Below are positions 1-32,307 of a DNA stretch of 33,300 nt, in pieces (position 1 is the stretch's first letter; each line of letters opens with the position of its first letter). The notes under the pieces are model-generated. The model did no database searches, had not been told where the DNA came from, and saw only the letters and a list, made by a program, of their open reading frames with translations. A program made the position numbers and the translations under genes. The stretch lies in contig MFNO01000030.1 of NCBI GenBank assembly GCA_001782075.1, positions 1 through 33,300 on the forward strand, in the 5' to 3' direction. Origin of the DNA: Candidatus Levybacteria bacterium RIFCSPHIGHO2_01_FULL_38_26 (lineage in GTDB: Bacteria > Patescibacteriota > Microgenomatia > Levybacterales > UBA12049).

Positions 1-1164
1 GAATTTGTCGGGCAGGAACATCTGGTTGGAAAAGGAAAAATTCTCCAAAGAATGATGGAGCAGAAACAGGTATCCTCGATGATCTTTTGGGGACCACCCG
101 GAAGCGGAAAAACAACTTTAGCTCAGATCATCTCTAAATCTACCGAGTCTGATTTTTATTCTCTCTCTGCTGTTCAAACTGGAAAAGATGATTTAAGAAA
201 AATTATAAATTCTGCAAGAGAGAACCAAAAAAACAATAAAAAAACAATTTTATTTATAGACGAAATTCATAGATGGAATAAGTCGCAACAAGACGCATTA
301 TTACCTCAGGTTGAAAGTGGATTGATAACTCTTATCGGAGCAACCACAGAAAATCCTTCTTTTGAAGTAATAAGCCCTCTCCTGTCCAGGTGCAGGGTTT
401 TTGTCCTGAAGAGCTTGTCTTATGAAAACTTGGAAAAGATTATAGACAAATCGCTTTCTGACAAACAAAAAGGAGTAGGGAAGTACCGCAAAAAAATAGA
501 TAAAGATTCTAAAGAGCTTCTTGTTAGGCTCTCCGGAGGAGATGCGCGTATTATGTTAAATGCACTGGAAATTGCCGTAACTAATTTTAAAGAAAAACAA
601 ATAACACAAGAAATTATCAGAGAAGTTTTCCAGACAAGAAGCGCCGGTCTTTATGACAAAAAAGCCGATGAACATTACAACATAATAAGCGCTTTTATAA
701 AATCTATGCGCGGAAGCGATCCGGACGCTGCTCTTTATTACATGGCAAGAATGCTTGAGAATGGAGAAGACCCGAAATTTATAGCCAGACGAATGATTAT
801 CTTTGCGTCAGAGGATATAGGCTTGGCAGACCGTGGGGCGCTCATTCAGGCAAACGCTGGATTTGAAGCAGTACACAAAATCGGTATGCCTGAAGCTCAG
901 CTGATACTCGCGCACATTTGCCTCTATCTTTCTACCGCCAAAAAATCAAGAGCTGTTGTTAACGCTCTTTCAGAGGCAAAGCAAGCAGTTTACGAATTTC
1001 CTAACGAACCGATTCCCCTTCATATCAGAAATGCTCCGACCAAACTTATGAAAGACTTGGGATATGCCAAAAATTATACCTGGAGCAACAGCTATGTCGG
1101 TCCTACTTCAAATCTTCCATTTCTACCAATAAAACTCAAAGGCAAAAAGTTTTACAAACCATAA
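1..1164 (+). CDS. rarA: RarA/MgsA-type AAA+ ATPase (5' end outside window)
   Basis: Replication-associated recombination protein A, a clamp-loader-like AAA+ ATPase that acts at stalled replication forks. The reading frame is open back to base 1 (it reads EFVGQEHLVG before the first Met at 52), so the gene begins left of the window and 52 is not the true start. Visible motifs are Walker A GPPGSGKTT (about 91-117), Walker B LFIDEIH, sensor-1-like ATTENPSF and the arginine-finger region LLSRCRVF. The C-terminal half, with GGDARIMLNALE and RRMIIFASEDIGLAD, matches the MgsA tetramerisation domain. It ends normally at TAA. The next gene converges on it. Family assignment is firm; the in vivo role is taken from the family. 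Confidence 0.95.
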   Translation, partial: EFVGQEHLVGKGKILQRMMEQKQVSSMIFWGPPGSGKTTLAQIISKSTESDFYSLSAVQTGKDDLRKIINSARENQKNNKKTILFIDEIHRWNKSQQDALLPQVESGLITLIGATTENPSFEVISPLLSRCRVFVLKSLSYENLEKIIDKSLSDKQKGVGKYRKKIDKDSKELLVRLSGGDARIMLNALEIAVTNFKEKQITQEIIREVFQTRSAGLYDKKADEHYNIISAFIKSMRGSDPDAALYYMARMLENGEDPKFIARRMIIFASEDIGLADRGALIQANAGFEAVHKIGMPEAQLILAHICLYLSTAKKSRAVVNALSEAKQAVYEFPNEPIPLHIRNAPTKLMKDLGYAKNYTWSNSYVGPTSNLPFLPIKLKGKKFYKP

Positions 1165-7809: not shown

Positions 7810-8928
7810 GTGAATAAGCTCAAACTTACACTAATTATTTTCTCCTTTTTTATCTTCTCTGCAATAATTACTATCTTGCTGATATACTTTCCCTCTACTA
7901 ATAATCCTCAAGAAATTCCAGAGCTAAAAGATATATTGGGAGACGATCAAACTGCACGTTTAACTGCAGCGAGAAAATTGGCTGAAAGAGTGGGCGTTGA
8001 AGAAGCTCTAGAAATTTTGGAAAAATCTTCATTGCCTCACACAGGCGAAGGACACCTGGTAGTTCATCAGATAGGTTTTTACGCTTACAGCAAATATGGA
8101 ATTGATTCTATTCTGAAATGTAAAGATTACTTTTTGTACGCTTGCTATCATGGGGCTATTATAGAAGCAGCGTCAGATGGAGGATTTGAGGCTGTAACCA
8201 AAATGACCGATCAATGCAAATCCTCTTCCCTTCAGTATTTTCAATGCGTCCACGCCGCAGGACACGCTATTCTGGCTATGTGGGATTATGATCTGCCAAA
8301 GGCACTGGAAACATGTGACGATCTTTATGAAAAGGAAAACCGTTTTCCAGATGCTTTATCATCATGCCACAATGGTGTTTTTATGGAAAATATTTTTGGA
8401 GTACATGACTGGGGAGCTGGCAAAGAGACAAAAAGAGAATGGCTGTCGGAAGATCCATATTTTCCATGTAATTTTTTCTCCGAAAAATACCAAAAAGGCT
8501 GCTGGCTCAACCAAGCAGCAAGGATCATTGAAATTCATGGAGGAGATATTGGCAAATCAACTTCTACCTGTGAAGGAATCGGTAATGACCAGCATACATT
8601 TTGGTGTATAGACAATATTGCCAGACAAATCCACCCTCTCACTCTTGGTGATCCCAAAAAAAGCTTTGATCTTTGCCAACAGGTTGGAAAAAAATGGCAG
8701 AATGATTGCATCCTAATAAATGCGACAGCATTTTATTCCGTGGGCGGAAGAGAAGAGGCGATATATATTTGTTCGGAAACTCCCCAAAATATAAAAAGCG
8801 AATGTTATATGCGTATAACCGAACAAATAATTTCTGATTCCATAGACAGAAATACCAAAGAAGAAACTTGCAATAAAATGGAGCTTCCTTACAGAAATCA
8901 ATGCGTCTCTGGTTTGGATTCCTCATAA
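7810..8928 (+). CDS. exported Cys/His-rich helical repeat protein
   Basis: Starts with GTG. The N-terminal signal anchor (residues 4-27, LKLTLIIFSFFIFSAIITIL) is followed by an extracytoplasmic domain rich in Cys and His. Ordered motifs are HLVVH (82-86), C104, CYHG (112-115), CVHAAGH (146-152) and CHNGVFME (186-193). These are followed by PYFPC, then Cys pairs spaced about 9-12 residues in helical repeats (CEGI...WC, CQQVGKKWQNDC, CSETPQNIKSEC). The same motif order occurs in the neighbour at 8932, so the two are paralogues. The Cys pairs suggest disulfide-stapled helical hairpins, and the HxxxH, CYHG and HxxGH positions could bind a metal. I know no characterised family member. It is cotranscribed with the next gene, 3 bases away. 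Confidence 0.75.
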   Translation: MNKLKLTLIIFSFFIFSAIITILLIYFPSTNNPQEIPELKDILGDDQTARLTAARKLAERVGVEEALEILEKSSLPHTGEGHLVVHQIGFYAYSKYGIDSILKCKDYFLYACYHGAIIEAASDGGFEAVTKMTDQCKSSSLQYFQCVHAAGHAILAMWDYDLPKALETCDDLYEKENRFPDALSSCHNGVFMENIFGVHDWGAGKETKREWLSEDPYFPCNFFSEKYQKGCWLNQAARIIEIHGGDIGKSTSTCEGIGNDQHTFWCIDNIARQIHPLTLGDPKKSFDLCQQVGKKWQNDCILINATAFYSVGGREEAIYICSETPQNIKSECYMRITEQIISDSIDRNTKEETCNKMELPYRNQCVSGLDSS

Positions 8929-8931
8929 ATT

Positions 8932-10344
8932 ATGACAAAGACAGTAATTATTCTTTTTATATTTTTTTCTTTTTTACTACCCAACAATATTTTTGCCCAT
9001 TCTCAAATCCAAATCATAGAAATAACACCAGATGGTTTCATCCCCCAATCGGTCACAATTGACCAAAATTCAACGATTATTTTTGTTAATAAAGATGAGA
9101 CAGATCACTGGCCTGCCAGCAACACCCATCCCCACCATGATTTATACCCTGAATTTGACCCAAAAAAACCAATAAAACCTGGTGAATCATGGACGCTAAA
9201 ACAAGACGGTGGATTGAAAATAGGAGAGTGGAGATTTCACGATCACCTGCATCCGCATCAAAGAGGAATATTGACTGTGACAGAGGAGGAAGCTTCTGAG
9301 AAAAAAGAGTCAAACTTCATAAATGAATTTGGGAAATTTCTAGAAGATATTTGGACGCAAATTAAAAAATTATTTACTTTTGAATCAATATCGATCGGTC
9401 AAAAAAGTCTTCCTGATAAAAATATCTTCTTCGCCCAAACCTCATCTGAAAAAGAAAATACAATAAAAGTAATTGCAGAAAGCCATGGAGCGGATATGGC
9501 GTGGCAATATTTAAAAAATACTTTCAAAGGAGAAGCGGGAGCGGATGGAGATATTCACGATCTATCGCATCTGGCGGGCGGTCTAATTTATGAAAAAAAT
9601 GGGTTTAATGGCTTGGGAAATTGCACAAGCGAGTATGCATTTGGGTGCTATCATGGATTTTTGGACGTTGCTTTTGCCAAAAACCTTGATTTGCTTCGTG
9701 ATGCCGAAAAATCCTGCCTGAAAATGAATAGCCGAAACACCGGCTACGTCTCAGGCCCGGCCGCAAGCTGTATTCACGGCATCGGACACGGAGTCGCAAG
9801 TTTTTATTCAACTGCCAACCTAAATGAATCCCTAACCTCCTGCGCAAAACTCTCTATCGGGAAAGAGTATTGCTATGACGGAGTGTTTATGGAATTTGTC
9901 AGAAACGCGAAGGATTCTTTTTTCAATAAAAATGATTCTTTTTATCCATGCAGTCAATTAGAAATAGAGTTTGGCGATGAATACTCATTTGCCTGCGGAA
10001 GAAATCAACCTTCGCTTTTGATGGGAAGGTTTGATATGGAGTTTAATCAAGTCATTTCCGTCTGTCATTCTTCAAATTCGAAGCCTTTTAAAGAAGGATG
10101 TTTTGATTCTTTGGGTTTTACACTTGCCGCATTAGAAGACCCAAAACAGGTTATAGACGGCTGTCAAAATATTGGCGAAAATGAATTTGCATCGAGATGT
10201 CTAGTAGCAGCAGCAGGAGAAATGGTGTTTCAAGAAGTGCCTAATTGGCGGGAAAAATCTAGAGAAGTTTGCGATGCAGCTCTGGAGGAAAAAGAAAATT
10301 GTCAACCCCACGTTGACAGACTTATTCTGGAATACGGAAGATAA
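8932..10344 (+). CDS. cupredoxin-like domain fused to Cys/His-rich repeat domain, exported
   Basis: A signal peptide at about 1-22 (VIILFIFFSFLLPNNIFAHS) is followed by a cupredoxin/plastocyanin-like beta-sandwich at about 24-117 (ITPDGFIPQSVTIDQNSTII, FVNKDETDHWPASN, GEWRFHDHLHPHQRGILTV). The usual Cu-ligand Cys is absent; the ligand loop is His-rich (H103, H105, H107, H109), with more His at 59, 66, 68 and 69. After a linker, residues about 180-470 repeat the neighbour's domain: HDLSH (209-213), C231, CYHG (239-242), CIHGIGH (280-286), CYDGVFME (314-321), YPC, and late Cys pairs such as CQNIGENEFASRC. Probably a surface or periplasmic-side metal-binding protein. Copper specificity is unproven. 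Confidence 0.8.
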   Translation: MTKTVIILFIFFSFLLPNNIFAHSQIQIIEITPDGFIPQSVTIDQNSTIIFVNKDETDHWPASNTHPHHDLYPEFDPKKPIKPGESWTLKQDGGLKIGEWRFHDHLHPHQRGILTVTEEEASEKKESNFINEFGKFLEDIWTQIKKLFTFESISIGQKSLPDKNIFFAQTSSEKENTIKVIAESHGADMAWQYLKNTFKGEAGADGDIHDLSHLAGGLIYEKNGFNGLGNCTSEYAFGCYHGFLDVAFAKNLDLLRDAEKSCLKMNSRNTGYVSGPAASCIHGIGHGVASFYSTANLNESLTSCAKLSIGKEYCYDGVFMEFVRNAKDSFFNKNDSFYPCSQLEIEFGDEYSFACGRNQPSLLMGRFDMEFNQVISVCHSSNSKPFKEGCFDSLGFTLAALEDPKQVIDGCQNIGENEFASRCLVAAAGEMVFQEVPNWREKSREVCDAALEEKENCQPHVDRLILEYGR

Positions 10345-21131: not shown

Positions 21132-22529
21132 ATGGCAATAAAACCGCTAGTATTTTCAGAGGCTACAGAATTAACCGCAATTTCTCCCCTTGATGGACGA
21201 TACCGTAAAACAATTCAAGAATTAGCTCCTTTTGTATCAGAAATGGCGCTGATAAACACAAGAATTGAAGTCGAAGCAAAATATCTAATTGCATTGTCCG
21301 AATCTCGCATAGTAAGAAGCATTACAAACAGGGAGAAAAAGTTATTAATAAATCTAGGTCAGAATATGACCACAAAACAGATAGAAAGAGTAAAAGAGAT
21401 TGAAAAAACAACAAGGCATGATGTCAAAGCCGTTGAAAGAGCTTTTCGCGAACTACTAAAAGACACAAGCCTAAATGACCTAGTTGAAATGATTCATTTT
21501 GGCCTAACATCAGAGGACATCAATAATCTTTCATATCGCTTGCTTCTTCAACGAGCAACTTATTCTGTGTGTCTTCCAACTATTGAACAAATTGTGGAAG
21601 AACTTGTTAAAAAAGCAAACAGATATAAAGCAACAGCCATGATTTCACGTACACATGGACAGCCTGCTTTACCAACTACTCTTGGGAAGGAATTTTCTGT
21701 TTTTGCTATACGACTACATACCCAGCTCCAAAAACTAAAAAAACAAAAATTTACCGGAAAACTAAATGGAGCTGTTGGAAATTTTAATGCTTTACATTTT
21801 GCCTACCCTAATGTTAACTGGATTAATTTTTCAAAAAATTTTGTCTCATCTTTCGGGTTTATCCCAAACCTTAGTACAACACAAATTAATGCGTATGATG
21901 ACACAAGCGAATGTTTTCAGACATATCAAAGAATCAATAGTATTATCGTTGATCTTGATCAGGACATCTGGCGATATATAAGCGATAATTGGTTTATTCA
22001 GGAGGTAAAAAAAGGCGAAGTAGGATCCTCCACTATGCCTCAAAAAGTAAACCCGATTGATTTTGAAAACAGCGAAGGAAATTTAGGGATGGCAAATGCA
22101 ATTCTTGGCTTTATGTCCTCCAAGCTTATCGTTTCTCGACTTCAACGGGATCTTTCAGACAGCACAGTTATTAGAAATATTGGGACAGCGTTGGGATTCT
22201 GCTTAATTGGATACAAAAGTACCCTTAATGGATTAAAAAGAATAATACCAAATGAAGATAAAATAGATGCTGAATTGCAAAAAGATTGGGTTATCTTAAC
22301 AGAAGCTGTGCAGACAATTCTTCGAAAAGCTGGTGTTTCTGACCCATATTCTTTAATTGCCTCTATTAGTAGGGGAAATCATATCAAAAAAGACGCATGG
22401 AAAGTTTGGGTTGGTAGTTTGCCAGTTGAGAAAAAATACAAAATAGTACTCAAAAATCTTACACCCAACAAATATACCGGTCTTGCAGTTAAATTAACAG
22501 AAAGAGCAATCTCTCAGATAAAAAAATGA
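21132..22529 (+). CDS. purB: adenylosuccinate lyase
   Basis: A 465-aa lyase of the fumarase/aspartase superfamily. It removes fumarate from SAICAR and from adenylosuccinate. The N-terminal LTAISPLDGRYRKTIQELAP places it in the E. coli PurB-like long subclass. The catalytic-loop signature GSSTMPQKVNPIDFENSEGN is complete, and HG (TSRTHGQPA-like ISRTHGQPALPTTLGKE) provides the general acid histidine. It overlaps purK by ATGA. First gene of the purine run; no riboswitch fits in the 17-base gap upstream. Only an AT-rich inverted repeat, GTTATT/AATAAC (21103-21124), is visible there. Confidence 0.95.
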   Translation: MAIKPLVFSEATELTAISPLDGRYRKTIQELAPFVSEMALINTRIEVEAKYLIALSESRIVRSITNREKKLLINLGQNMTTKQIERVKEIEKTTRHDVKAVERAFRELLKDTSLNDLVEMIHFGLTSEDINNLSYRLLLQRATYSVCLPTIEQIVEELVKKANRYKATAMISRTHGQPALPTTLGKEFSVFAIRLHTQLQKLKKQKFTGKLNGAVGNFNALHFAYPNVNWINFSKNFVSSFGFIPNLSTTQINAYDDTSECFQTYQRINSIIVDLDQDIWRYISDNWFIQEVKKGEVGSSTMPQKVNPIDFENSEGNLGMANAILGFMSSKLIVSRLQRDLSDSTVIRNIGTALGFCLIGYKSTLNGLKRIIPNEDKIDAELQKDWVILTEAVQTILRKAGVSDPYSLIASISRGNHIKKDAWKVWVGSLPVEKKYKIVLKNLTPNKYTGLAVKLTERAISQIKK

Positions 22530-23659
22530 ATTATCCATTGCGAATTGGTATTGTCGGAGGAGGACAACTGGGTAAAATGCTCACTATTGCTGCAAAAAAG
22601 ATAGGCTTTTATGTTACCATAATTGATCCTACTCCCAATAGCCCTGCCGGGCAGGTAGCGGATTTTCAAATAGTTGCTGGTTACAAAGATGAAAAGGCTA
22701 TAAAAAAACTTGCAGATATTTCAGACGTTATTACATTTGAAATAGAGCTTGCTAACGATAAGGTGCTAAATGGTCTTATATCCAAAGGAAAAATAGTTCA
22801 TCCCAGCCCGCAAACACTTGGAGTTATTCGAGACAAATTAAGACAAAAAGAGTTTTTGAAACAACATTCTCTTCCAACAGCTAAATTTATGGAAGTTTTC
22901 TCAATTGAAGATATTATTCATGCAGGTAAATTGTTTGGTTATCCTATGATTTTAAAAGCGCGTACAGATGCGTATGATGGTCGTGGTAATACGCTCATAA
23001 AAACAGACAAAGATATTCAAAGAGGCCTAGAGAAATTAAAAGGCAGAATACTATATATCGAACAGTATGTGCCCTTTGTTAAAGAACTTGCTGTTATGGT
23101 TGCACGAAACCCAAAAGGAGAAATTGCCGCATTTCCTGTCGTTGAAACTATCCATAAAGATAATATTTGCGATACTGTTATTGCACCGGCTCAGATATCT
23201 AAAAAGGTCAAACGCGACGCACAAAGACTTGCAGAAAAAGTAATGAAATACTTAAATGGAGCAGGAGTTTTTGGCATAGAAATGTTTTTAAAAAAAGATA
23301 ACAGTGTTATTATTAACGAAATAGCTCCACGAGTCCATAATTCGGGACATTATACTATTGAAGCATGTTTTACCTCGCAGTTTGAGCAACACATTCGCGC
23401 CATATCTGACCTTCCGCTTGGCAATACTGATATGCTGGTAAAAACGGCTGTTATGAAAAACATATTAGCAACTAAAAACGGAGAAGGATTTCCTAAAGGC
23501 ATTGAGAGAGCATTGGCAATACCGGGCATTTCTTTTCACGTATACGGCAAGAAAGAAGCAAGGAGTGCGCGAAAAATGGGACACCTAACTGTCACTGGAA
23601 GCAAGATAAAAGAGTGTCTGGACAAGGCTAACAAAGCCCGTAAATTTTTGGAGATATAA
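22526..23659 (+). CDS. purK: N5-carboxyaminoimidazole ribonucleotide synthase
   Basis: A 377-aa ATP-grasp enzyme that carboxylates AIR to N5-CAIR using ATP and bicarbonate. It has the N-terminal [20 protein letters not shown], the ATP-grasp regions [17 protein letters not shown] and [20 protein letters not shown], and the C-terminal [20 protein letters not shown]. Overlaps the purB stop by four bases (ATGA). Followed by purE after four bases. Together with class I purE this gives the bacterial two-step route to CAIR. Confidence 0.96.
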
Positions 23660-23663
23660 TTTT

Positions 23664-24188
23664 ATGCAAAAACTCCTAATCGCTATCATCATGGGATCAG
23701 ATTCTGATCTTCCGATAATGAGCGGTGCCGCAAAAGTCTTGGATGATTTTAAAATCCCATATGAATTAACTATTATGTCAGCTCACAGAACGCCTAAGAG
23801 AATGTACGACTATGCCAAAAAAGCGCATGAGCGGGGAATAAAAGTCATTATTGCCGGTGCAGGAGGATCTGCTCATTTACCAGGCATGGTGGCGTCTTTA
23901 ACTTCCTTACCGGTTATTGGAGTCCCAATTAAAACAAAAAACCTAAATGGATTGGACTCTCTTCTTTCAATAGTTCAAATGCCTCCTGGAATTCCTGTTG
24001 GAACAGTTGCAATAAATGGCGCTAAAAACGCAGGCATTTTGGCGGCAAGTATAGTCGGGTCAAATCATAAAAAAATCCTAAATAAAATTCAGAGATACAA
24101 AAATAAACTTAAAAAAGAAGTTACTCAAAAAGCGAAAACTCTTGAAAAATCAGGATTTAAAAAATATTTAACTGATGAAAATCATTAA
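23664..24188 (+). CDS. purE: 5-(carboxyamino)imidazole ribonucleotide mutase
   Basis: A 174-aa class I PurE that converts N5-CAIR to CAIR. Motifs are [12 protein letters not shown], the phosphate and substrate loops [35 protein letters not shown], and [21 protein letters not shown] Lys-rich tail of about 20 residues extends beyond the usual core. Its last 14 bases overlap the purC start in another frame. Presence of purK next door supports class I function. Confidence 0.96.
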
Positions 24189-25056
24189 GACAATTAATTT
24201 TAGAGGTTTTGGAAAAAAGTTCGGTGGTAAAACTCGCGATTTTTATATTAAAGATGACACAAGAATTATTATTTCAACAGATAGAATTTCTGCTTTTGAT
24301 AAGGTTCTTGGGTATATCCCAAACAAAGGGCAAGTTCTAAGTCAACTTTCTGTTTTTTGGTTTGAGCAAACAAAAGACATAATTTCCAACCATTTAATTT
24401 CAGTCCCGCATCCAAATATTATAATTGTAAAAAACTGCAAGCTAATTCCAATAGAAATGGTTGTGAGAGGTTATATGACAGGCGTGACCGGAACGTCTAT
24501 TTGGGGATCATACGCAAAAGGAGAAAGGGTAATTTATGGACTAAGATTCAAGACTGGTTTGAAAAAAAACCAAAAGCTTCCAAGACCGATTATTACTCCC
24601 ACTACAAAGGCAACAAAAGGACACGACGCTCGCTTGACAAGAAAGGAAATTTTGGAGAAAAAGATTGTGTCATCAAAGCTTTATAGTCAAATGGAAAAAA
24701 CAGCCCTTAAACTTTTTCAAAGGGGAACAAAAATATGTAAAAGAGCCCGTATTATACTTGTTGACACAAAGTATGAGTTTGGCCTCGACAAAAATAATAG
24801 GCTTATTTTGATTGACGAAATTCACACTCCGGACTCTTCAAGGTTTTGGATTGAAAAAACATATAAGGAAAGGTTCGAAAAAGGTTTGGAGCCGGAAAAT
24901 TTTGACAAGGAGTTTTTGAGAATCTGGTTTAAAAAAAGAGGCTATGCCGGAGACGGTAAGCCTCCCAAAATGCCCAAAAGTTTTATTTACAAAGTTACTA
25001 AAAGATATATAAGCATTTATGAAATGATCACTGGCGAAAAATTTGTTTCCTTATGA
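24175..25056 (+). CDS. purC: SAICAR synthetase
   Basis: A 293-aa phosphoribosylaminoimidazole-succinocarboxamide synthase that joins CAIR and aspartate with ATP. Visible motifs: [20 protein letters not shown] then [38 protein letters not shown] and DTKYEFGLD...[14 protein letters not shown]. The length fits the long (yeast ADE1-like) subclass rather than the bacterial form of about 240 aa. It begins inside purE and overlaps purL by ATGA. Confidence 0.95.
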
Positions 25057-27875
25057 TTCAAACAGTTCGAGTATCATATCTCTCAGAAAAAAAAGACAGC
25101 TACAAAATCCGCTCGGCACGCGTATATCGTCTTGAAGGAATTAAAAAAAAAGATGCTGAAATTCTTGCTCAAAAGTTATTTTGTGAACCGATAAATCAAG
25201 TCTATTCATTAAATAGACCTCTAATTAAGAACACTTCGCAAAAAGTCGAAATCGCATATAGACCAGGCGTGATGAACCCTGAAGCCGCTTCAATTATTAA
25301 ATCTGCCAAAGATATGGGAATCGAGTTATTGGCGGCTGACTCAAGCTGGGAATATTATTTTTTTGAAAAAATTTCAGAAGACGAAATACACGAAAGGGTC
25401 CGAAAATTAAACCTTTTCAACGAAACAGTCGAATATATTGTTAAAAAAGAACCAAAAACACTGCTTATTAGAGGGAATGTCGGATCAACTGCCATAGTTC
25501 CCATAAGAAAAATGACCGACGAGGAGTTACTTTCTTTATCTAAAGATAAACTTTTTCTTAACCTAGATGAGATGAAAATAGTTCAAAATTATTTTAAAAA
25601 AATAAAAAGAGATCCGACCGACTGCGAGCTTGAAACTATTGCCCAAACGTGGAGCGAACACTCCGGACATAAAACTTTTAAAGCAAAAATATTTGTTGAC
25701 GGAAAAGAGAAAACTCCGCTTATAGAAAGAGTAAAGAAAGAAGCGCTAAAACACAACAAAAATATCGTCTCAGCATTTGAGGACAATTCAGGAGTAATGG
25801 ATTTTTATGAAGGCTTCGCAATTTCGGCAAAAGGAGAGACTCACAATAGTCCATCTGCAATAGAGCCGTATGGCGGAGCTATGACCGGATCAGGAGGCGT
25901 ATTTCGAGATATTGTAGGGACCGGTCGTGGAGGAAAAACGCTTATCTCAACTGATATATTTTGTCTGGCAAACCCTAATTTACCCTCCTCAAAACTCCCA
26001 TCCGGGTGTCTCCATCCTAAATATATTTTAAAACAAGTTGTCAGAGGCGTAAAAGATTACGGAAACCGTATGGGAATCCCAACTAATAACGGGTCATTTC
26101 ATTTCCACGATGACTTTCGCGCAAAACCAACAGTACTCGTCGGAGCGTATGGGATATTGCCAAAAAGATACGCGAAAAAAGGAAAGCCAATGAAGGGTGA
26201 TTTCATTGTTAGCATCGGAGGAAGAATTGGAAGGGACGGCATTCATGGCGCGACTTTTTCTTCAGGAGTTATGACAGAGAGAACCAATTCTGTAAACAGC
26301 CAAGCAGTACAAATTGGCAACGCGATAGAAGAAAAAAGAACATTTGACGCAATTCTAGAGGCAAGAGACAGAAACTTAATAAGCGCAATTCAAGACTGCG
26401 GAGGAGGTGGACTCTCCTCTGCAATTGGAGAGATGGGAGAAAAAACCGGAGTAACTGTGGAGTTAAAAAATGCTTTATTAAAATACCAAGGCCTAAGTCC
26501 CTGGGAGATCTGGCTTTCTGAATCCCAGGAAAGAATGATTTTGGCGATTCCAAAAAATAGGATTCAAGAGTTTAAAAAAATCTGTAAAAAATATAATGTT
26601 GAGATTTCTGTTCTTGGCAAATTTGACGGAAGTAAGAAGTTAAAAGTTTATTACAGTAAAAAACTTGTGGCAGATCTTGACATGAAATTTCTACATCATG
26701 GCCTTCCTCAAAGAAAAATGATTGCCAACCACTCCAAAGTTATCGTTACCCGAAGAATTGCAAAAAAAAATAATTCCTTAATAGTATCTAAGGCTCAAAA
26801 ACAGTGGGTAAATATCATAAAAAAAATTTTATCCCACGGAAATGTTTGTTCAAAAGAACCAATAGTCAGATTATATGATCATACTGTCCAGGGAACAAAC
26901 GTGCTTAGCCCTTTTAGCGGAGAAGAGATGGACGGACCAAACGATGCGGCAGTAATCAGGCCGCTACTGGACAAGCCTTATGGAATGGTAGTATCTCATG
27001 GACTCAACCCAATCTTAAATAGAATCGATCCATACTGGGGAAGTATCTGGGCGGCAACCGAAGCTATTTCAAATTTCACGGCAGTTGGGGGAGATTATAG
27101 AAACGCATCGTTAATAAACAATTATATTTGGCCGTTTCCTGACGAAGAATCACTATGGTCGTTAGACCAGTCAGTTGACGCAGTTGTAGATTTTATGAAA
27201 CTCTTAAAAATTCCGGTAATTTCCGGCAAAGATAGTCTATCCTCAACATACAAAGGAAAAAATGAATTAACAATAAAAATTCCCCCTGTCCTTTGTATCT
27301 CTGTTTTTGGAAAAATCCCTGATGTCACAAAAACTATTTCCTCGGATTTCAAAAAACAGAATTCCGTAATCTGTCTTGTTGGAAAACTTGACATAAAAGG
27401 AATGGCAGGATCAGCTTATTTTGAAGTCCTCAATCGGAATATGGCAACTGAACAATTTAACAATATCCCCCACGTAGATTTAAAACTTTTACCAAAAACA
27501 TTAAACACTATCTACAGAGGAATTCAAACTGGAAAAATTTTATCCTGCCATGATGTTAGCGAAGGAGGGTTAATTACTGCAGTTTTTGAAATGTGTGTAG
27601 GCGGAAATTTTGGAGCTGAAATTTACCTCGGACGATTGATGGGAAATCGAGCAGATTATATTTTGTTTAACGAAACAGCAGGTTGCTTCATAGTTGAAGT
27701 CCAAAACGAGAAAATTGCTAAAAAAATCTTCAAAGACATTCCATATTTTATTCTGGGAAAAACAAAAAAAGAGAAAAATATAACTGTTAAAAAGAAAAAT
27801 GAAACGCTTTTTAGAGAAAATCTTGAAATTCTAAAAAAAGTCTGGCAAAAACCCATGAAAGAAATTTTTAATTAA
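25053..27875 (+). CDS. purL: PurS-PurL fused FGAM synthase, large subunit
   Basis: A 940-aa formylglycinamidine ribonucleotide synthase subunit. Residues 1 to about 150 look like PurS-type sequence (VYRLEGIKKKDAEILAQKLF, YRPGVMNPEAASIIKSAKDM, KLNLFNETVEYIV). The PurL catalytic body follows: WSEHSGHKTF at 200-209 (canonical WSEHCSYK), GETHNSPSAIEPYGGAMTGS from 261, DCGGGGLSSAIGEM near 447, and AIR-synthase-like repeats to the end. There is no glutaminase domain; it is the separate purQ next door. A fused PurSL with free PurQ is an uncommon but known arrangement. The ATGA overlap with purC supports the start. Confidence 0.92.
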   Translation: MIQTVRVSYLSEKKDSYKIRSARVYRLEGIKKKDAEILAQKLFCEPINQVYSLNRPLIKNTSQKVEIAYRPGVMNPEAASIIKSAKDMGIELLAADSSWEYYFFEKISEDEIHERVRKLNLFNETVEYIVKKEPKTLLIRGNVGSTAIVPIRKMTDEELLSLSKDKLFLNLDEMKIVQNYFKKIKRDPTDCELETIAQTWSEHSGHKTFKAKIFVDGKEKTPLIERVKKEALKHNKNIVSAFEDNSGVMDFYEGFAISAKGETHNSPSAIEPYGGAMTGSGGVFRDIVGTGRGGKTLISTDIFCLANPNLPSSKLPSGCLHPKYILKQVVRGVKDYGNRMGIPTNNGSFHFHDDFRAKPTVLVGAYGILPKRYAKKGKPMKGDFIVSIGGRIGRDGIHGATFSSGVMTERTNSVNSQAVQIGNAIEEKRTFDAILEARDRNLISAIQDCGGGGLSSAIGEMGEKTGVTVELKNALLKYQGLSPWEIWLSESQERMILAIPKNRIQEFKKICKKYNVEISVLGKFDGSKKLKVYYSKKLVADLDMKFLHHGLPQRKMIANHSKVIVTRRIAKKNNSLIVSKAQKQWVNIIKKILSHGNVCSKEPIVRLYDHTVQGTNVLSPFSGEEMDGPNDAAVIRPLLDKPYGMVVSHGLNPILNRIDPYWGSIWAATEAISNFTAVGGDYRNASLINNYIWPFPDEESLWSLDQSVDAVVDFMKLLKIPVISGKDSLSSTYKGKNELTIKIPPVLCISVFGKIPDVTKTISSDFKKQNSVICLVGKLDIKGMAGSAYFEVLNRNMATEQFNNIPHVDLKLLPKTLNTIYRGIQTGKILSCHDVSEGGLITAVFEMCVGGNFGAEIYLGRLMGNRADYILFNETAGCFIVEVQNEKIAKKIFKDIPYFILGKTKKEKNITVKKKNETLFRENLEILKKVWQKPMKEIFN

Positions 27876-27882
27876 ACGATAT

Positions 27883-28668
27883 ATGAAACCAAGAATATTG
27901 GTTCTAAAAGCTGACGGGACAAACTGCGATGAAGAACTCGCATTTGCATTCAAAATTGCGGGAGGAATCCCAAAAATTATTCATATCAACGATCTAAGAA
28001 GCAAAAAAGAAAATTTTAAAAATTATAATATTCTTGCGATCCCGGGAGGATTTGCATACGGAGACGATATCGCGTCCGGAAAAATATTGGCAGGAGAGCT
28101 AACTTCATTTTTCTCAGAAGAGCTAAAAAAATTTATAAAAAGAAAAGATACTCTTACAATAGGCATTTGCAACGGTTTTCAAGTTTTAGTCAGAACAGGA
28201 CTATTGCCTTTTGGTACAATTGGAAAAATGCAGGCAACCCTGACCGACAACGATTCTGGTCATTTTGAATGCCGATGGATAAATCTCAGAATAGATAAAA
28301 ATAATTCTTGTGTTTTCTTAAAAGATTTGGAAGATCAAATAATCTCTTATCAGGTCGCCCACGGCGAGGGAAAATTTTTTGCCAACAATAAAACTTTAAA
28401 AACAATCGAACAATCCGGTCTCGTCGTTTTCCGCTATATTGATAAAAAAGGTAAGCCTACAAAGAATTACCCGGAAAATCCTAATGGATCCCTTAATGCA
28501 ATCGCGGGAATCTGCGACCCGACAGGCCGAATTATAGGCCTTATGCCCCACCCCGAAAGATTTATTTTCAAAGAACACTATCCTAATTGGAGAAGGCAAA
28601 AAATTGATAGACCACAAGGGTTATCAATCTTTAAAAGTATGATAAGTTATATAAAAGAAGTTCTATGA
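27883..28668 (+). CDS. purQ: FGAM synthase glutaminase subunit
   Basis: A 261-aa class I glutamine amidotransferase that supplies ammonia to PurL. Nucleophile Cys96 lies in IGICNGFQVLVR, and the His223-x-Glu225 pair in LMPHPERF. The N-terminal ADGTNCDEELAFAFKIAG and IPGGFAYGDDIASGKILAGE are typical PurQ. It is seven bases after purL and its stop overlaps the next start by ATGA. The size (slightly longer than B. subtilis PurQ) fits the larger-type PurQ that works without a C-terminal PurL fusion. Confidence 0.96.
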   Translation: MKPRILVLKADGTNCDEELAFAFKIAGGIPKIIHINDLRSKKENFKNYNILAIPGGFAYGDDIASGKILAGELTSFFSEELKKFIKRKDTLTIGICNGFQVLVRTGLLPFGTIGKMQATLTDNDSGHFECRWINLRIDKNNSCVFLKDLEDQIISYQVAHGEGKFFANNKTLKTIEQSGLVVFRYIDKKGKPTKNYPENPNGSLNAIAGICDPTGRIIGLMPHPERFIFKEHYPNWRRQKIDRPQGLSIFKSMISYIKEVL

Positions 28669-29552
28669 AAATTGGAATTTTTTCTACTTTTATCGAACCT
28701 GCTGCTTTAGATCTTGTAAATTCTGTTCAAGGTGCTGTAAAGAGTGGAGAAATTCCCAATACAGAAATCTCCTTTATTTTTTCAAATCGGGAACAAGGAG
28801 ACGATCCAGCAACAGACAAGATTTTAGATACATTAAATAGACAAGACACACGTCTTATGACATTTTCAGCACCCAGGTTCAAACCTGATATGAGAAGAAA
28901 AGCAAGGCAAGAAGAAAAATCTGGGAGTACCTCTCTGATGCAAGAATGGCGAAATCAGTTTGGAGAAGAGGTTTTAAAAAGACTTCCCCGAACAGACGTT
29001 GATTTACTACTGGGCGACATGTACATTTGGGGAGATAATATGTGTGATGAAAGAAATGGAATCAATCTTCATCCGGCACTCCCCTGGGGGCCAAAAGGTG
29101 AATGGTATAAAGTTATCTGGCAATTAATTCAAGATAAGTCGCAAGAAACTGGCGTTATGATGCATAAAGTAACTCCTGAATTGGATCGCGGCCCTGCCAT
29201 TGCTTATTGCCGCTTTCCGATCAGAGATTCTTTCCTAACCCCGCTGTGGAATCGTCTACCAAGAGATCCACGCAAACTCGAAGAGGTAATTAGACAGGGC
29301 TTGATAGAGAAAGAAAAAGCAAACCATCCCCTTTTTAAGGAAATAAGAAATAGAGGGTTTACCCGAGAAACGCCGCTCATTGTCCAAACAACAAAGGCTT
29401 TCACAAAAGAATCACTTAGGCTCGAGGGGGGAACTCCCGTTGATAGAAATGGAATTATTCTTCGTGAAGGTTACGATTTAACGTCTCGGATTGACACAAT
29501 AGTTAGCCGTCAGCTTGAAGGACAAAATTTTGCGAGAAAGGAGGTGTTTTAA
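28665..29552 (+). CDS. PurN-like formyltransferase, divergent
   Basis: A 295-aa protein with a formyl-transferase core. INLHPALPWGPKGEWYKVIW contains the NxHP signature, and QETGVMMHKVTPELDRGPAI carries the aspartate that normally follows (canonical tG.TvH.V....D.GpII). The N-terminal half (MKIGIFSTFIEPAALDLVNS) and the 90-residue C-terminal extension are unlike standard PurN. Its position within the purine operon suggests GAR transformylase. A related formyltransferase with another acceptor cannot be excluded. Coupled to purQ by ATGA, and the next gene follows immediately with a strong Shine-Dalgarno. Confidence 0.75.
   Translation: MKIGIFSTFIEPAALDLVNSVQGAVKSGEIPNTEISFIFSNREQGDDPATDKILDTLNRQDTRLMTFSAPRFKPDMRRKARQEEKSGSTSLMQEWRNQFGEEVLKRLPRTDVDLLLGDMYIWGDNMCDERNGINLHPALPWGPKGEWYKVIWQLIQDKSQETGVMMHKVTPELDRGPAIAYCRFPIRDSFLTPLWNRLPRDPRKLEEVIRQGLIEKEKANHPLFKEIRNRGFTRETPLIVQTTKAFTKESLRLEGGTPVDRNGIILREGYDLTSRIDTIVSRQLEGQNFARKEVF
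29537..29546 (+). promoter_or_regulatory. near-perfect Shine-Dalgarno for the HAD gene
   Basis: AAAGGAGGTG, six bases before the ATG at 29553 and inside the end of the PurN-like gene. Shows that the ribosome's anti-SD is in use for internal operon genes. Confidence 0.7.
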
Positions 29553-30644
29553 ATGAAGCCAAAAGTATTGTTTACAGATGGAGAGGGTCCTATTGTATTT
29601 AAAGATCTCGCAGCAGATGTGACTGAAAAAGTTGTTCCGGGACTTTTTCCAGTATTAAGTTTTTATGATGATTATCTTGCTGAAATTGGAACTGAGGGTT
29701 ACCAAGCAGGAGACACTCTGGCGCTTGTGGTCCCGCATTTTCTAGCTCATGGCGTTAAAGATAAAGATATTGCAAACGAAGCAAAAGACGCGAAGTTATG
29801 CTTTGGCGTTGAAGAATATGTCTCAGAACTAAAAAAAGACGAGTGGAATATTAGAATTATTTCAACCGCATATAGCCAAATGTGGGAGCTGGTAGGTGAA
29901 CATTTGGGAATTCCTATCCAAGATATCGCCTGCACAAAACTTGACTTAAAAGCTCTCAAAGAAAGTTTTGGATCAAAAGATTTTTACGCTAGAGTTCTTG
30001 CCGCAGAAAAAAATATTCTTGCATCTACACCTTTAGCCAATGAAGCCATGCGGGAAGTTGATCAAGGCAAATCCGTGGTTGAGGTTTTGGGGAAAAATCC
30101 TAAATTTACTCCTTTAAGAGAAAGTCTTGATCATTTCTACTGGGATGAGCTAAAAAATTTAGGATACCAAACGCTGGAAGCAGTAACTGTTATTGGAGGA
30201 AAGAGAAAAATTGACGCAGCGCAAAATTTTGCGCGGGAATTAGGACTAAGCCTTTCTGATATCCCATACGTTGGAGACAGCATAACTGATGATGCTATTC
30301 ACAAACGTTTGAAAGATGAAGGAGGCCTACCGATTGCGATAAACGGAAACGCTTACGCGCTTCGTAATGCTCGCGTCGCTGTGGCAACAGAAGATATGAG
30401 AAATGTTCGTCCAATTCTTGACGCATGGCAAGCCGGTGGATTTGAGGCAGTAAAAAGTAGAATTGATGAATCAAATCAATCATTTATGGTTGGTGGCAAA
30501 GAGGGATCGCCTATACACGAGGAGCCAAGCCATTATTATCATATCGTTAAATGGGATAATCCCGCAAACCAAAGGGAGCTAAGACAAGTTCACGGAGAGT
30601 TCAGGCGCCGTGTTCGCGGAGCAGCAACCGCAAAACTGGGGTAA
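29553..30644 (+). CDS. HAD-superfamily phosphatase, EhaR-like
   Basis: A 363-aa haloacid-dehalogenase fold protein. Motif I is FTDGEGPIVF, with D9 and a Glu (E11) where most HADs have Asp. Motif II is in IRIISTAY, motif III is the lysine in VIGGKRKIDAAQ, and motif IV is YVGDSITDDA with D242 and D246. The N-terminal DGEGP and the segment YDDYLAEIGTEGYQAGDTLA resemble archaeal EhaR-type HAD proteins (annotated as energy-converting hydrogenase A subunit R). No hydrogenase genes are here. Its place between PurN-like and purM genes suggests a phosphatase on a purine intermediate or nucleotide; that is inference. Confidence 0.75.
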   Translation: MKPKVLFTDGEGPIVFKDLAADVTEKVVPGLFPVLSFYDDYLAEIGTEGYQAGDTLALVVPHFLAHGVKDKDIANEAKDAKLCFGVEEYVSELKKDEWNIRIISTAYSQMWELVGEHLGIPIQDIACTKLDLKALKESFGSKDFYARVLAAEKNILASTPLANEAMREVDQGKSVVEVLGKNPKFTPLRESLDHFYWDELKNLGYQTLEAVTVIGGKRKIDAAQNFARELGLSLSDIPYVGDSITDDAIHKRLKDEGGLPIAINGNAYALRNARVAVATEDMRNVRPILDAWQAGGFEAVKSRIDESNQSFMVGGKEGSPIHEEPSHYYHIVKWDNPANQRELRQVHGEFRRRVRGAATAKLG

Positions 30645-30646
30645 TT

Positions 30647-31183
30647 ATGCAAAAAAATATAAAGACAAACTGGTACGTGATTACTGGAGCGCCGAGTTCT
30701 GGAAAAACTACTACATTAAAATCTTTAGAAAATAAAGGTTATAAAGTTTTCTATGAATGGGCTCGTATTTATATTGACCAAGAAATGAAAAAAGGCAAAA
30801 CTCTTAAAGAAATAAGAGCTGATGAACTAAAGTTTCAAAAAAAAATTTTAAAATTAAAAGCTGATTTCGAAAAAAAACTTGATCCAAAAAAATTACTTTT
30901 TATGGAAAGGGGAATTCCTGATAGTAATGCTTATATGAAAATACTAGGTTTTGAAAATAATAAGTCTCTGAAAAATGCGCTGAAAAAATGTTATTATAAA
31001 AAAGTTTTTTTATTAGAGCTTATTAAGTACGAATTGGACTACGCTAGAACCGAAAGTCAAGAAGAGGCAATGATTATTGATTCTCTTCTTGAGAAAAGTT
31101 ATACAGATCTTGGAATTGAAGTTTTGAGAATTCCAAAAATGTCTGTAGAAAAAAGGATTGATTTTATTTTAGACAATTTATGA
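30647..31183 (+). CDS. AAA_28-like P-loop NTPase or kinase
   Basis: A 178-aa single-domain P-loop protein. Walker A is GAPSSGKTT (14-22). A helical insert follows (YIDQEMKKGKTLKEIRADEL), then an LLFMERGIPDSNAY motif (E87, R88, D92) reminiscent of the DR-type substrate/Mg site in nucleoside kinases. It resembles the AAA_28/NadR-like ATPase family. Coupled on both sides (2 bases after the HAD gene, ATGA into purM). Operon context suggests a nucleotide-related kinase; the substrate is unknown. Confidence 0.65.
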   Translation: MQKNIKTNWYVITGAPSSGKTTTLKSLENKGYKVFYEWARIYIDQEMKKGKTLKEIRADELKFQKKILKLKADFEKKLDPKKLLFMERGIPDSNAYMKILGFENNKSLKNALKKCYYKKVFLLELIKYELDYARTESQEEAMIIDSLLEKSYTDLGIEVLRIPKMSVEKRIDFILDNL

Positions 31184-32307
31184 GCAAGAATACAATTACA
31201 TATTCTCAGGTTGGGGATAATTATGATACAAAAGATCCTGTTAAAAAACTTTTCCAAAAAGCAGCTTCTAACACAGCAAAAAATCTAAAAAAACACGGTT
31301 TTGAGGAAATTTCAGATTCTCGGGGCGAATCGGCATATGTCTGGTCTCCCATTCGACAAGCTCAGGGCAAGCAAGACTTTATGTTGGCTTCAGTTATCGA
31401 AGGACTAGGGACCAAAAATCTCATTGCTGACGCAATGTATAAAACAACAGGAAAAACTTACTACGATGTAGTCGCCCATGATACAGTTGCGGCAATCATA
31501 AACGATCTTTCAACAGTGGGAGCAAAACCTCTTGTTATCCATGCATACTGGGCAATTGAAGATAATAAGTGGCTTTCCGATCAAAAACGCATGAAGGATT
31601 TGATCATGGGCTGGAAAAATGCATGCGATATTGCCGGTGCCTCCTGGGGCGGGGGAGAAACAGCAACGATGAAACAAATTGTCGTAAAGGGAGTGGCTGA
31701 ATTCGGTGGATCGGCTGTTGGAATAATAACCACGAAGAAAAATCTGATTACCGATAAAAAGCTAAAAGAAAGGGACAGAATATTGCTTTTAAAAAGCAAT
31801 GGCGTTAATGCAAATGGCATATCTCTGGCAAGAGCAATTGCGAAAAATCTTCCAAAAGGTTACTCGGAAAAGCTTCCAAACGGAAAAATGTATGGAGAGA
31901 CACTACTTACAAAAACAAATATTTATGCGAAGTTAGTTCAGGATTTATTAAAGGACAATGTTGATATTCATTATATCTCCAATATTACCGGTCATGGATT
32001 TAGAAAAATCATGAGAGCAAGACCGAATTTTACATATGTAATCGAAAAAATGTTTAATCCGCACCAGGTATTCCTTTTTATCCAAAAACACGCAAATCTA
32101 AACGACTATGAAATGTACCAGACATACAATATGGGAATGGACTACGCGATTTTTCTTCCAGAAAAAGAGGTTACTAGGACGCAAAAAATTATCACAAAAC
32201 ATAAATTTCAAAGTGTCAATGCTGGATTTATCGAAAAAGGAGAAAGACAAGTTATTATCAAGCCAAAAAAATTAGTCTATAAAGGAGAAACCCTTGATCT
32301 ACGCTAA
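31180..32307 (+). CDS. purM: AIR synthetase, divergent, with in-frame repeat insertion
   Basis: A 375-aa phosphoribosylformylglycinamidine cyclo-ligase. Motifs: VIEGLGTKNLIADAM (canonical GVGTK), HDTVAAIINDLSTVGAKPLV, AGASWGGGETATM (canonical GGETAEMP), LKSNGVNANGISLARAI and NITGHGFRKIMRARP. Divergent in wording but complete. Residues 59-65 (RQAQGKQ) are encoded by a palindromic interspersed-repeat word between WSPI and DFMLASV, a region that is otherwise a conserved strand start. The insertion is in frame and does not break the gene. Last gene of the purine run. Confidence 0.9.
   Translation: MSKNTITYSQVGDNYDTKDPVKKLFQKAASNTAKNLKKHGFEEISDSRGESAYVWSPIRQAQGKQDFMLASVIEGLGTKNLIADAMYKTTGKTYYDVVAHDTVAAIINDLSTVGAKPLVIHAYWAIEDNKWLSDQKRMKDLIMGWKNACDIAGASWGGGETATMKQIVVKGVAEFGGSAVGIITTKKNLITDKKLKERDRILLLKSNGVNANGISLARAIAKNLPKGYSEKLPNGKMYGETLLTKTNIYAKLVQDLLKDNVDIHYISNITGHGFRKIMRARPNFTYVIEKMFNPHQVFLFIQKHANLNDYEMYQTYNMGMDYAIFLPEKEVTRTQKIITKHKFQSVNAGFIEKGERQVIIKPKKLVYKGETLDLR
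31348..31376 (+). repeat. interspersed REP-like element inside purM
   Basis: CCCATTCGACAAGCTCAGGG continuing into CAAGCAAGA. The core TTCGACAAGCTCAGG is a widespread repeat word in many CPR and environmental genomes and is often translated as RQAQGK or similar. Here it sits in frame within purM. Identification as this repeat is from memory; only one copy is in the window. Confidence 0.6.

Follow-up and report, generated by a model that had tools for sequence, protein, structure and literature searches.

Two adjacent genes of a Candidatus Levybacteria genome, named here P1 and P2, encode exported proteins which share a domain of about 300 residues, predicted to be helical, with five conserved histidines. 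This five-His domain is probably an overlooked site for copper (or another metal) on the cell surface. The genes lie in the window, i.e., the whole stretch of 33,300 nucleotides that was analysed. The five histidines of the domain are likely to make up a functional metal site; with moderate confidence, we propose copper as its metal and a predicted His-brace Cu(II) module as the partner of the domain. Both the binding of a metal and its identity are inferred here from conservation and from the recurrent fusion of the domain to copper modules.

The P1–P2 gene pair and the conservation of its shared domain

The genome that contains the window has a size of 1.13 Mb and is 98.5% complete, and P1 and P2 are its only copies of the five-His domain. 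An earlier note on this DNA had described, at positions 7810–10344, two adjacent exported proteins that share ordered motifs. Their open reading frames do lie there (Table 1) and the gap between them is only 3 bases, so P1 and P2 are probably co-transcribed. The export of both proteins is also borne out: P1 has a membrane anchor and P2 a signal peptide that looks cleavable. Elsewhere in the window, positions 21132–32307 carry a row of purine biosynthesis genes (PurB, PurK, PurC, PurL and an AIR-synthase-like gene), which is notable given the small size of the genome.

Table 1. Genes and features of the P1–P2 pair; nucleotide positions are those of the window
Feature	Residues	Nucleotides	Strand	Remarks
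P1 gene		7810–8928	+	GTG start, 372 aa, one five-His/Cys domain
P1 N-terminal membrane anchor	about 5–27		+	hydrophobic helix, looks uncleaved
P1 five-His/Cys domain	50–372	7957–8925	+	16 Cys = 8 predicted disulfides
P1 HxxxH	H82, H86	8053–8067	+	His in 130/130 and 130/130 non-redundant domains
P1 His of CYHG	H114	8149–8151	+	His in 130/130
P1 HxxxH (CVHAAGH)	H148, H152	8251–8265	+	His in 129/130 (H148) and 130/130 (H152)
P1 GVFME	G189, E193	8374–8388	+	G189 invariant, E193 Glu in 115/130
P2 gene		8932–10344	+	470 aa: signal peptide, Cys-free cupredoxin, five-His/Cys domain
P2 predicted signal peptide		8932–8997	+	predicted cleavage IFA/H23, after Ala22
P2 Cys-free cupredoxin	23–118	8998–9285	+	PF13473 match 7.2e-8; predicted N-terminal His23
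P2 cupredoxin HPxH	H66, H69	9127–9138	+	both His invariant in 12 relatives
P2 cupredoxin HDH	H103, H105	9238–9246	+	Asp aligned with the amicyanin Cys ligand
P2 five-His/Cys domain	171–470	9442–10341	+	14 Cys = 7 predicted disulfides
P2 HxxxH	H209, H213	9556–9570	+	conserved-His alignment
P2 His	H241	9652–9654	+	conserved-His alignment
P2 HxxxH	H282, H286	9775–9789	+	conserved-His alignment
P2 GVFME	G317 to E321	9880–9894	+	conservation in alignment

The shared motifs are all present and in the expected order, in P1 as H82xxxH86, C112-Y-H114-G, C146-V-H148-A-A-G-H152, C186-H-N-GVFME, PC220 and then Cys pairs, and in P2 as H209xxxH213, C239-Y-H241-G, C280-I-H282-G-I-G-H286, C314-Y-D-GVFME, PC340 and then Cys pairs. 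The likeness of the two proteins is beyond chance, since BLASTP aligns them over 308 residues (21% identity) with E=6e-16, as expected for the paralogous pair that the note had proposed. Orthologues of P1 in other genomes are 63–68% identical to it.

Conservation was measured on 130 domains which are less than 70% identical and have a median pairwise identity of 25%. Residues were counted on HMM columns, because MAFFT had placed H114 of P1 one column off in alignment A5. The five histidines are retained in 649 of the 650 cells; apart from them, only Cys columns and two Gly reach a conservation of at least 99%. Earlier alignments of 66 and 118 domains agree. The His and Cys motifs are therefore conserved among homologues, and the conserved His site of the earlier note stands. 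It is the retention of the five histidines at such a low median identity that favors the binding of a metal. The column of position 118 holds an acidic residue (Glu or Asp) in 99/130 domains, but P1-type proteins lack this Glu and have Ile there. A sixth histidine, in the loop after GVFME, is found in just 55 of 93 domains and was excluded from the site.

All of the cysteines of P1 (16) and P2 (14) lie inside the five-His domain, so that each of them can be paired. The Cys pairs, eight in P1, look like disulfides according to their pattern of occurrence. The optional cysteines 81 and 108 are both present in 89 domains and both absent from 41, cysteines 104 and 112 are both present in 52 and both absent from 78, and no domain is mixed for either pair; cysteines 254 and 266 are present or absent together in 129/130 domains. 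The structural disulfides suggested by the note thus gain support from the perfect pairing of the optional cysteines. The spacing of 9–12 residues that it gave holds for most pairs and is wider in P2 at 262–280 and 340–355. The pair 81/108 suggests that the helix of H82 stands beside that of H114. The covarying cysteines 81/108 and 104/112 would tie these two helices together, which favors the reading as a metal site; the Ile that replaces E118 in P1-type proteins weakens this reading.

The P2 cupredoxin, fusion partners and the proposed metal

Residues 6–116 of P2 match the family Cupredoxin_1 (PF13473) with 32.8 bits, for a cut-off of 27 (E 7.2e-8), and a PDB search with the cupredoxin profile A8 retrieves CuNIR (E 9.7e-9) and amicyanin (E 3e-7). 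The cupredoxin part contains none of the 14 cysteines of P2. In every fused or lone relative examined, Asp or Asn stands where amicyanin has its Cys ligand. The His and Met that this loop contributes in amicyanin are lost as well in P2-type cupredoxins, which do not have the Cys-His-Met ligands of a type 1 (blue) copper site. Unlike amicyanin and CuNIR, they have HPxH and H(D/N)H motifs, which are invariant whether the cupredoxin is fused or lone. The note had described a His-rich cupredoxin without its Cys ligand, and it is conserved as such in the relatives. In the AlphaFold2 model of P2 this part is poor (pLDDT about 40), because the alignment contained no cupredoxin rows.

A histidine may also be present at the N-terminus of the mature protein. 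Ala-His occurs at the predicted signal-peptidase site in 12 of the 14 N-terminal cupredoxin fusions with a readable start (the exceptions being L070 and L197), and the CopC fusions have a histidine at their predicted mature N-terminus. In the CopC domain of YcnJ, the N-terminal histidine is a ligand of Cu(II), which it binds through its amino group (PMC12362106). In PmoB, the N-terminal His33 binds Cu(II) together with the HxH histidines His137 and His139 (PMC12576850). Because of the Ala-His at its predicted cleavage site and its HxH, P2 looks like a PmoB/CopC-type site carried by a cupredoxin, and is a candidate histidine brace. It would resemble CopC and the CuB site of PmoB in its predicted N-terminal histidine and in an HxH within a cupredoxin fold, but it has an additional HPxH.

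Lone membrane-anchored cupredoxins which have no Cys but contain HPxH and H(N/D)H are encoded at L036:1950-2324 (minus strand), on contig C1 of the window genome (9889–10203) and in L007–L032. These His-only cupredoxins are common in the relatives of the window organism and make up a second such group without a described copper site.

The recurrent fusion of the five-His domain to copper modules is the strongest functional clue, and favors copper. In L158, L165, L166, L168, L171, L203, L204, L205, L210 and L213, the domain is fused to CopC (PF04234), with or without a CopD part (PF05425). Cupredoxin fusions comprise P2 itself, L005, L065, L066, L068, L072, L207 and L208, and L053, where the cupredoxin is C-terminal; the Cys-free type occurs in Patescibacteria and in Rubrobacter-like Actinomycetota. 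A membrane protein of the PMT_2 type (L215) has a weak match to the five-His domain. On a quick tree of 93 domains, which gives approximate counts, the fusion state changes at least eight times, and fusions with a cupredoxin are spread over four distinct clades. The CopC–CopD fusions form one clade, and may therefore derive from a single event.

In the actinobacterial relatives L165, L166, L168, L171, L210 and L213, CopC is followed by CopD in one chain, as in YcnJ-type importers. YcnJ from Bacillus subtilis consists of a CopC–CopD unit with a C-terminal extracellular YtkA domain (PMC12362106). The relatives place the five-His domain at the same position, C-terminal and extracellular, and their CopC also starts with a histidine after the signal peptide. 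The C-terminal domain of the relatives is, however, not YtkA according to Pfam, and the pair in the window has neither CopC nor CopD, Cupredoxin_1 being the only family found in P1 and P2. The copper reading is favored because the five-His domain takes the place of YtkA, and because the predicted N-terminal histidine of the CopC fusions and of 12 of the 14 N-terminal cupredoxin fusions matches the ligands of YcnJ and PmoB. It is also favored by features of other relatives: a His/Met-rich stretch precedes the domain in Gemmatirosa, the protein from Nitrospira defluvii has a DHHHHE loop, and the gene from Kitasatospora adjoins Caa3_CtaG.

The assignment to copper is weakened by the many members from Nitrospira and Gemmatimonadota that stand alone, with no copper gene seen beside them. 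In Nitrospira, Actinomycetota and Doudnabacteria, the domain has mostly housekeeping genes as neighbors (tRNA synthetase, EF-G, NusA, Clp), which gave no hint of its function. One stand-alone member from Nitrospirota (L249:1360-2346) has HDEEAH as its predicted mature start, with a histidine just after the signal peptide.

The same site could instead bind haem or a metal other than copper (Zn, Fe or Mn), the domain being a redox or hydrolytic enzyme whose copper partners are incidental. One relative (L206) is a fusion with cytochrome c. A short cytochrome b5-like protein is encoded directly downstream of the domain at L119:6849-7295, and homologues of it adjoin the domain in L122, L128 and L137; this neighbor occurs in Rubrobacter and Saccharibacteria. 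Both the cytochrome c fusion and the b5-like neighbor would be compatible with haem or with a more general redox function, which weakens the copper reading. In a protein from Saccharibacteria (L131:3238-4953), the domain is fused to a multi-helix membrane segment with several histidines, for which there is no Pfam match. Moreover, five histidines and carboxylates arranged in i/i+4 pairs recall di-iron sites, such as that of hemerythrin. However, the closest cysteines of P1 or P2 are more than 7 residues apart and the CxxCH motif of c-type cytochromes does not occur inside the domain, the cupredoxin and CopC/CopD partners are far more common than haem partners, and none of the 60 members searched against Pfam at E<=5 matched hemerythrin, tyrosinase or a haem family. 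We therefore regard haem or another metal as rather unlikely. The note had suggested a metal or haem site: the conservation of the histidines and the fusions largely support the metal, while haem is made less likely by the absence of CxxCH and by the mostly copper-related partners. Its proposal of redox or metal handling is suggested independently by the CopC–CopD and cytochrome c fusions.

Database searches and predicted structure of the five-His domain

No family of Pfam or NCBIfam scored above its cut-off for the five-His domain of P1, P2 or their relatives. Sixty relatives scanned singly against Pfam at E<=5 gave scattered chance matches only, and sequence searches of the PDB, including a profile search, gave none; nor did P1 match viral contigs, or P2 phage records. 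This agrees with the view of the earlier note that the domain corresponds to no characterised family.

The five-His domain of P2 alone was modelled by AlphaFold2 with 59 relatives (pLDDT 89.8, pTM 0.88) and is all helix in the model. Most of the modelled Cys pairs connect consecutive helices, where one ends and the following one begins, giving stapled hairpins. From the sequence and DSSP, H209/H213, H241/D245 and H282/H286 have similar positions on three successive helices, which come after the staples, and E321 is on the fourth. This helix register, together with the covarying cysteines, suggests that the five histidines and the carboxylate residues could meet in one site.

The best Foldseek match has E 0.011 and Foldseek returns helical arrays only. 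The best match by VIA is the proteasome subunit Rpn1 (Z 7.6 over 254 residues, rmsd 11.4), which is within the range of unrelated arrays. A family assignment based on the fold was dropped, since the likeness is weak and extends to many helical arrays. The lack of a fold match is no evidence for a new fold. As in TPR, Sel1 and PC-repeat arrays, the helix hairpins of the model repeat about every 33 residues, and Rpn1/Rpn2 top the structural list; in contrast to these arrays, the five-His domain has a disulfide per hairpin and invariant histidines, and has no sequence match to them. The note had held that a match to a known non-metal helical-repeat family would speak against it: no match to a helical-repeat family was found by sequence, although arrays of helical hairpins such as the modelled one are common.

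These results bear on the idea that the domain is a structural, disulfide-rich helical repeat devoted to protein–protein contacts at the surface, in which the histidines make buried hydrogen bonds and are not metal ligands. The common type of the alpha-hairpin array, its weak likeness to TPR and Rpn1/Rpn2 arrays and the paralogue arrays of some genomes are in line with this idea. However, the five histidines are invariant at a median identity of 25% when most other polar positions vary, and the domain has been joined repeatedly and independently to copper or haem modules, so a purely structural role seems improbable.

Cassettes, distribution and proposed function

In eight Patescibacteria genomes, a P1-type gene is followed by the gene of an exported Cys-repeat protein and then by the cupredoxin form; in six of these cassettes, the latter contains the five-His domain twice. 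A small membrane protein belongs to the cassette in six genomes; a Crp-type regulator is found in two of the eight and also beside a P1 orthologue in L035. In 6/8 genomes, the Cys-repeat protein has a terminal tail of 158–578 residues with 20–24% Tyr. That of L033 has a similar end of 320 residues, and the copy of L222 was left out of this measurement owing to a Cys at its extreme end. The exported proteins, among them those at L216:4936-7701, L218:4043-6820 and L033:7941-10838, have up to about 980 aa and contain CxxxxxCxxYCxDPxNxxxxC repeats and a Tyr/Thr/Pro-rich tail. The window has the shortest version of the cassette, the two end genes being adjacent.

The bracketing of the Cys-repeat protein by P1- and P2-type genes in eight genomes, with a Tyr-rich tail in six, could mean that the domain is a copper oxidase which oxidises or cross-links a Tyr/Cys-rich surface fibre encoded alongside, but this is highly improbable, since the Cys/Tyr-rich protein is absent from the 98.5% complete window genome (the same query has matches in six control genomes), relatives from other phyla have no such neighbor at the loci examined, and no oxidase signature known to Pfam is present.

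Profile A3 detects the domain in 22 of the 281 genomes sampled from the window's class and in 22 of 380 from its phylum. Profile A5 was applied to four further phyla: an actinobacterial phylum has the domain in 14 of 296 sampled genomes, the one that includes a Gemmatimonadetes genome in 54 of 249, that of Nitrospira defluvii in 19 of 198, and that to which a Woesearchaeota genome belongs in 2 of 194, where one of the two matches is weak. In a scan of named genomes, the best 80 of 405 relatives include Patescibacteria, Woesearchaeota, Rubrobacter, Gemmatimonadetes, Nitrospira and Actinomycetota, and among these 80 the closest are from Patescibacteria, e.g., Doudnabacteria and Kaiserbacteria. 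The copies from Gemmatirosa and Kitasatospora come from plasmid records. An array of five further adjacent genes with six five-His domains (L033:10859-17847) suggests that the domain has expanded in some lineages.

We propose that P1 and P2 form a two-gene unit of exported metal proteins, held at the membrane or the surface and most likely binding copper. The shared domain would consist of helices throughout, arranged as a series of hairpins with a disulfide stapling each of them, in which three successive inner helices offer the pairs H/H, H/E(D) and H/H and the fourth offers the Glu of GVFME, so that five histidines and one or two carboxylates may build one metal site. Cleavage of the signal peptide after Ala22 would leave a histidine at the mature N-terminus of P2. 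The P2 cupredoxin, which has lost the Cys ligand and keeps HPxH and HDH, would then form a histidine-brace Cu(II) site similar to those of CopC and PmoB, capture Cu(II), and may exchange Cu(II) or electrons with the five-His domain.

A bolder proposal, which we consider unlikely, is that five histidines and one or two Glu from adjacent inner helices of a disulfide-stapled array define a new class of metal site: a two-copper centre that oxidises copper or uses oxygen, fed with copper or electrons by a His-brace cupredoxin or CopC, and which in Patescibacteria could modify the Tyr-rich protein.

Exported copper handling is already known as a kind of system; the domain itself is new. It spans several phyla of Bacteria and at least one lineage of Archaea, with a frequency of about 8% in the sampled genomes of the window's class and 22% in the sampled Gemmatimonadota, and is covered by none of the family libraries searched and by no solved structure. 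The five invariant histidines make a simple mutational test feasible. Its recurring union with copper modules makes the domain a candidate, so far overlooked, for the handling of copper outside the cell, also in organisms whose genomes measure 1 Mb and in nitrifiers, e.g., Nitrospira.
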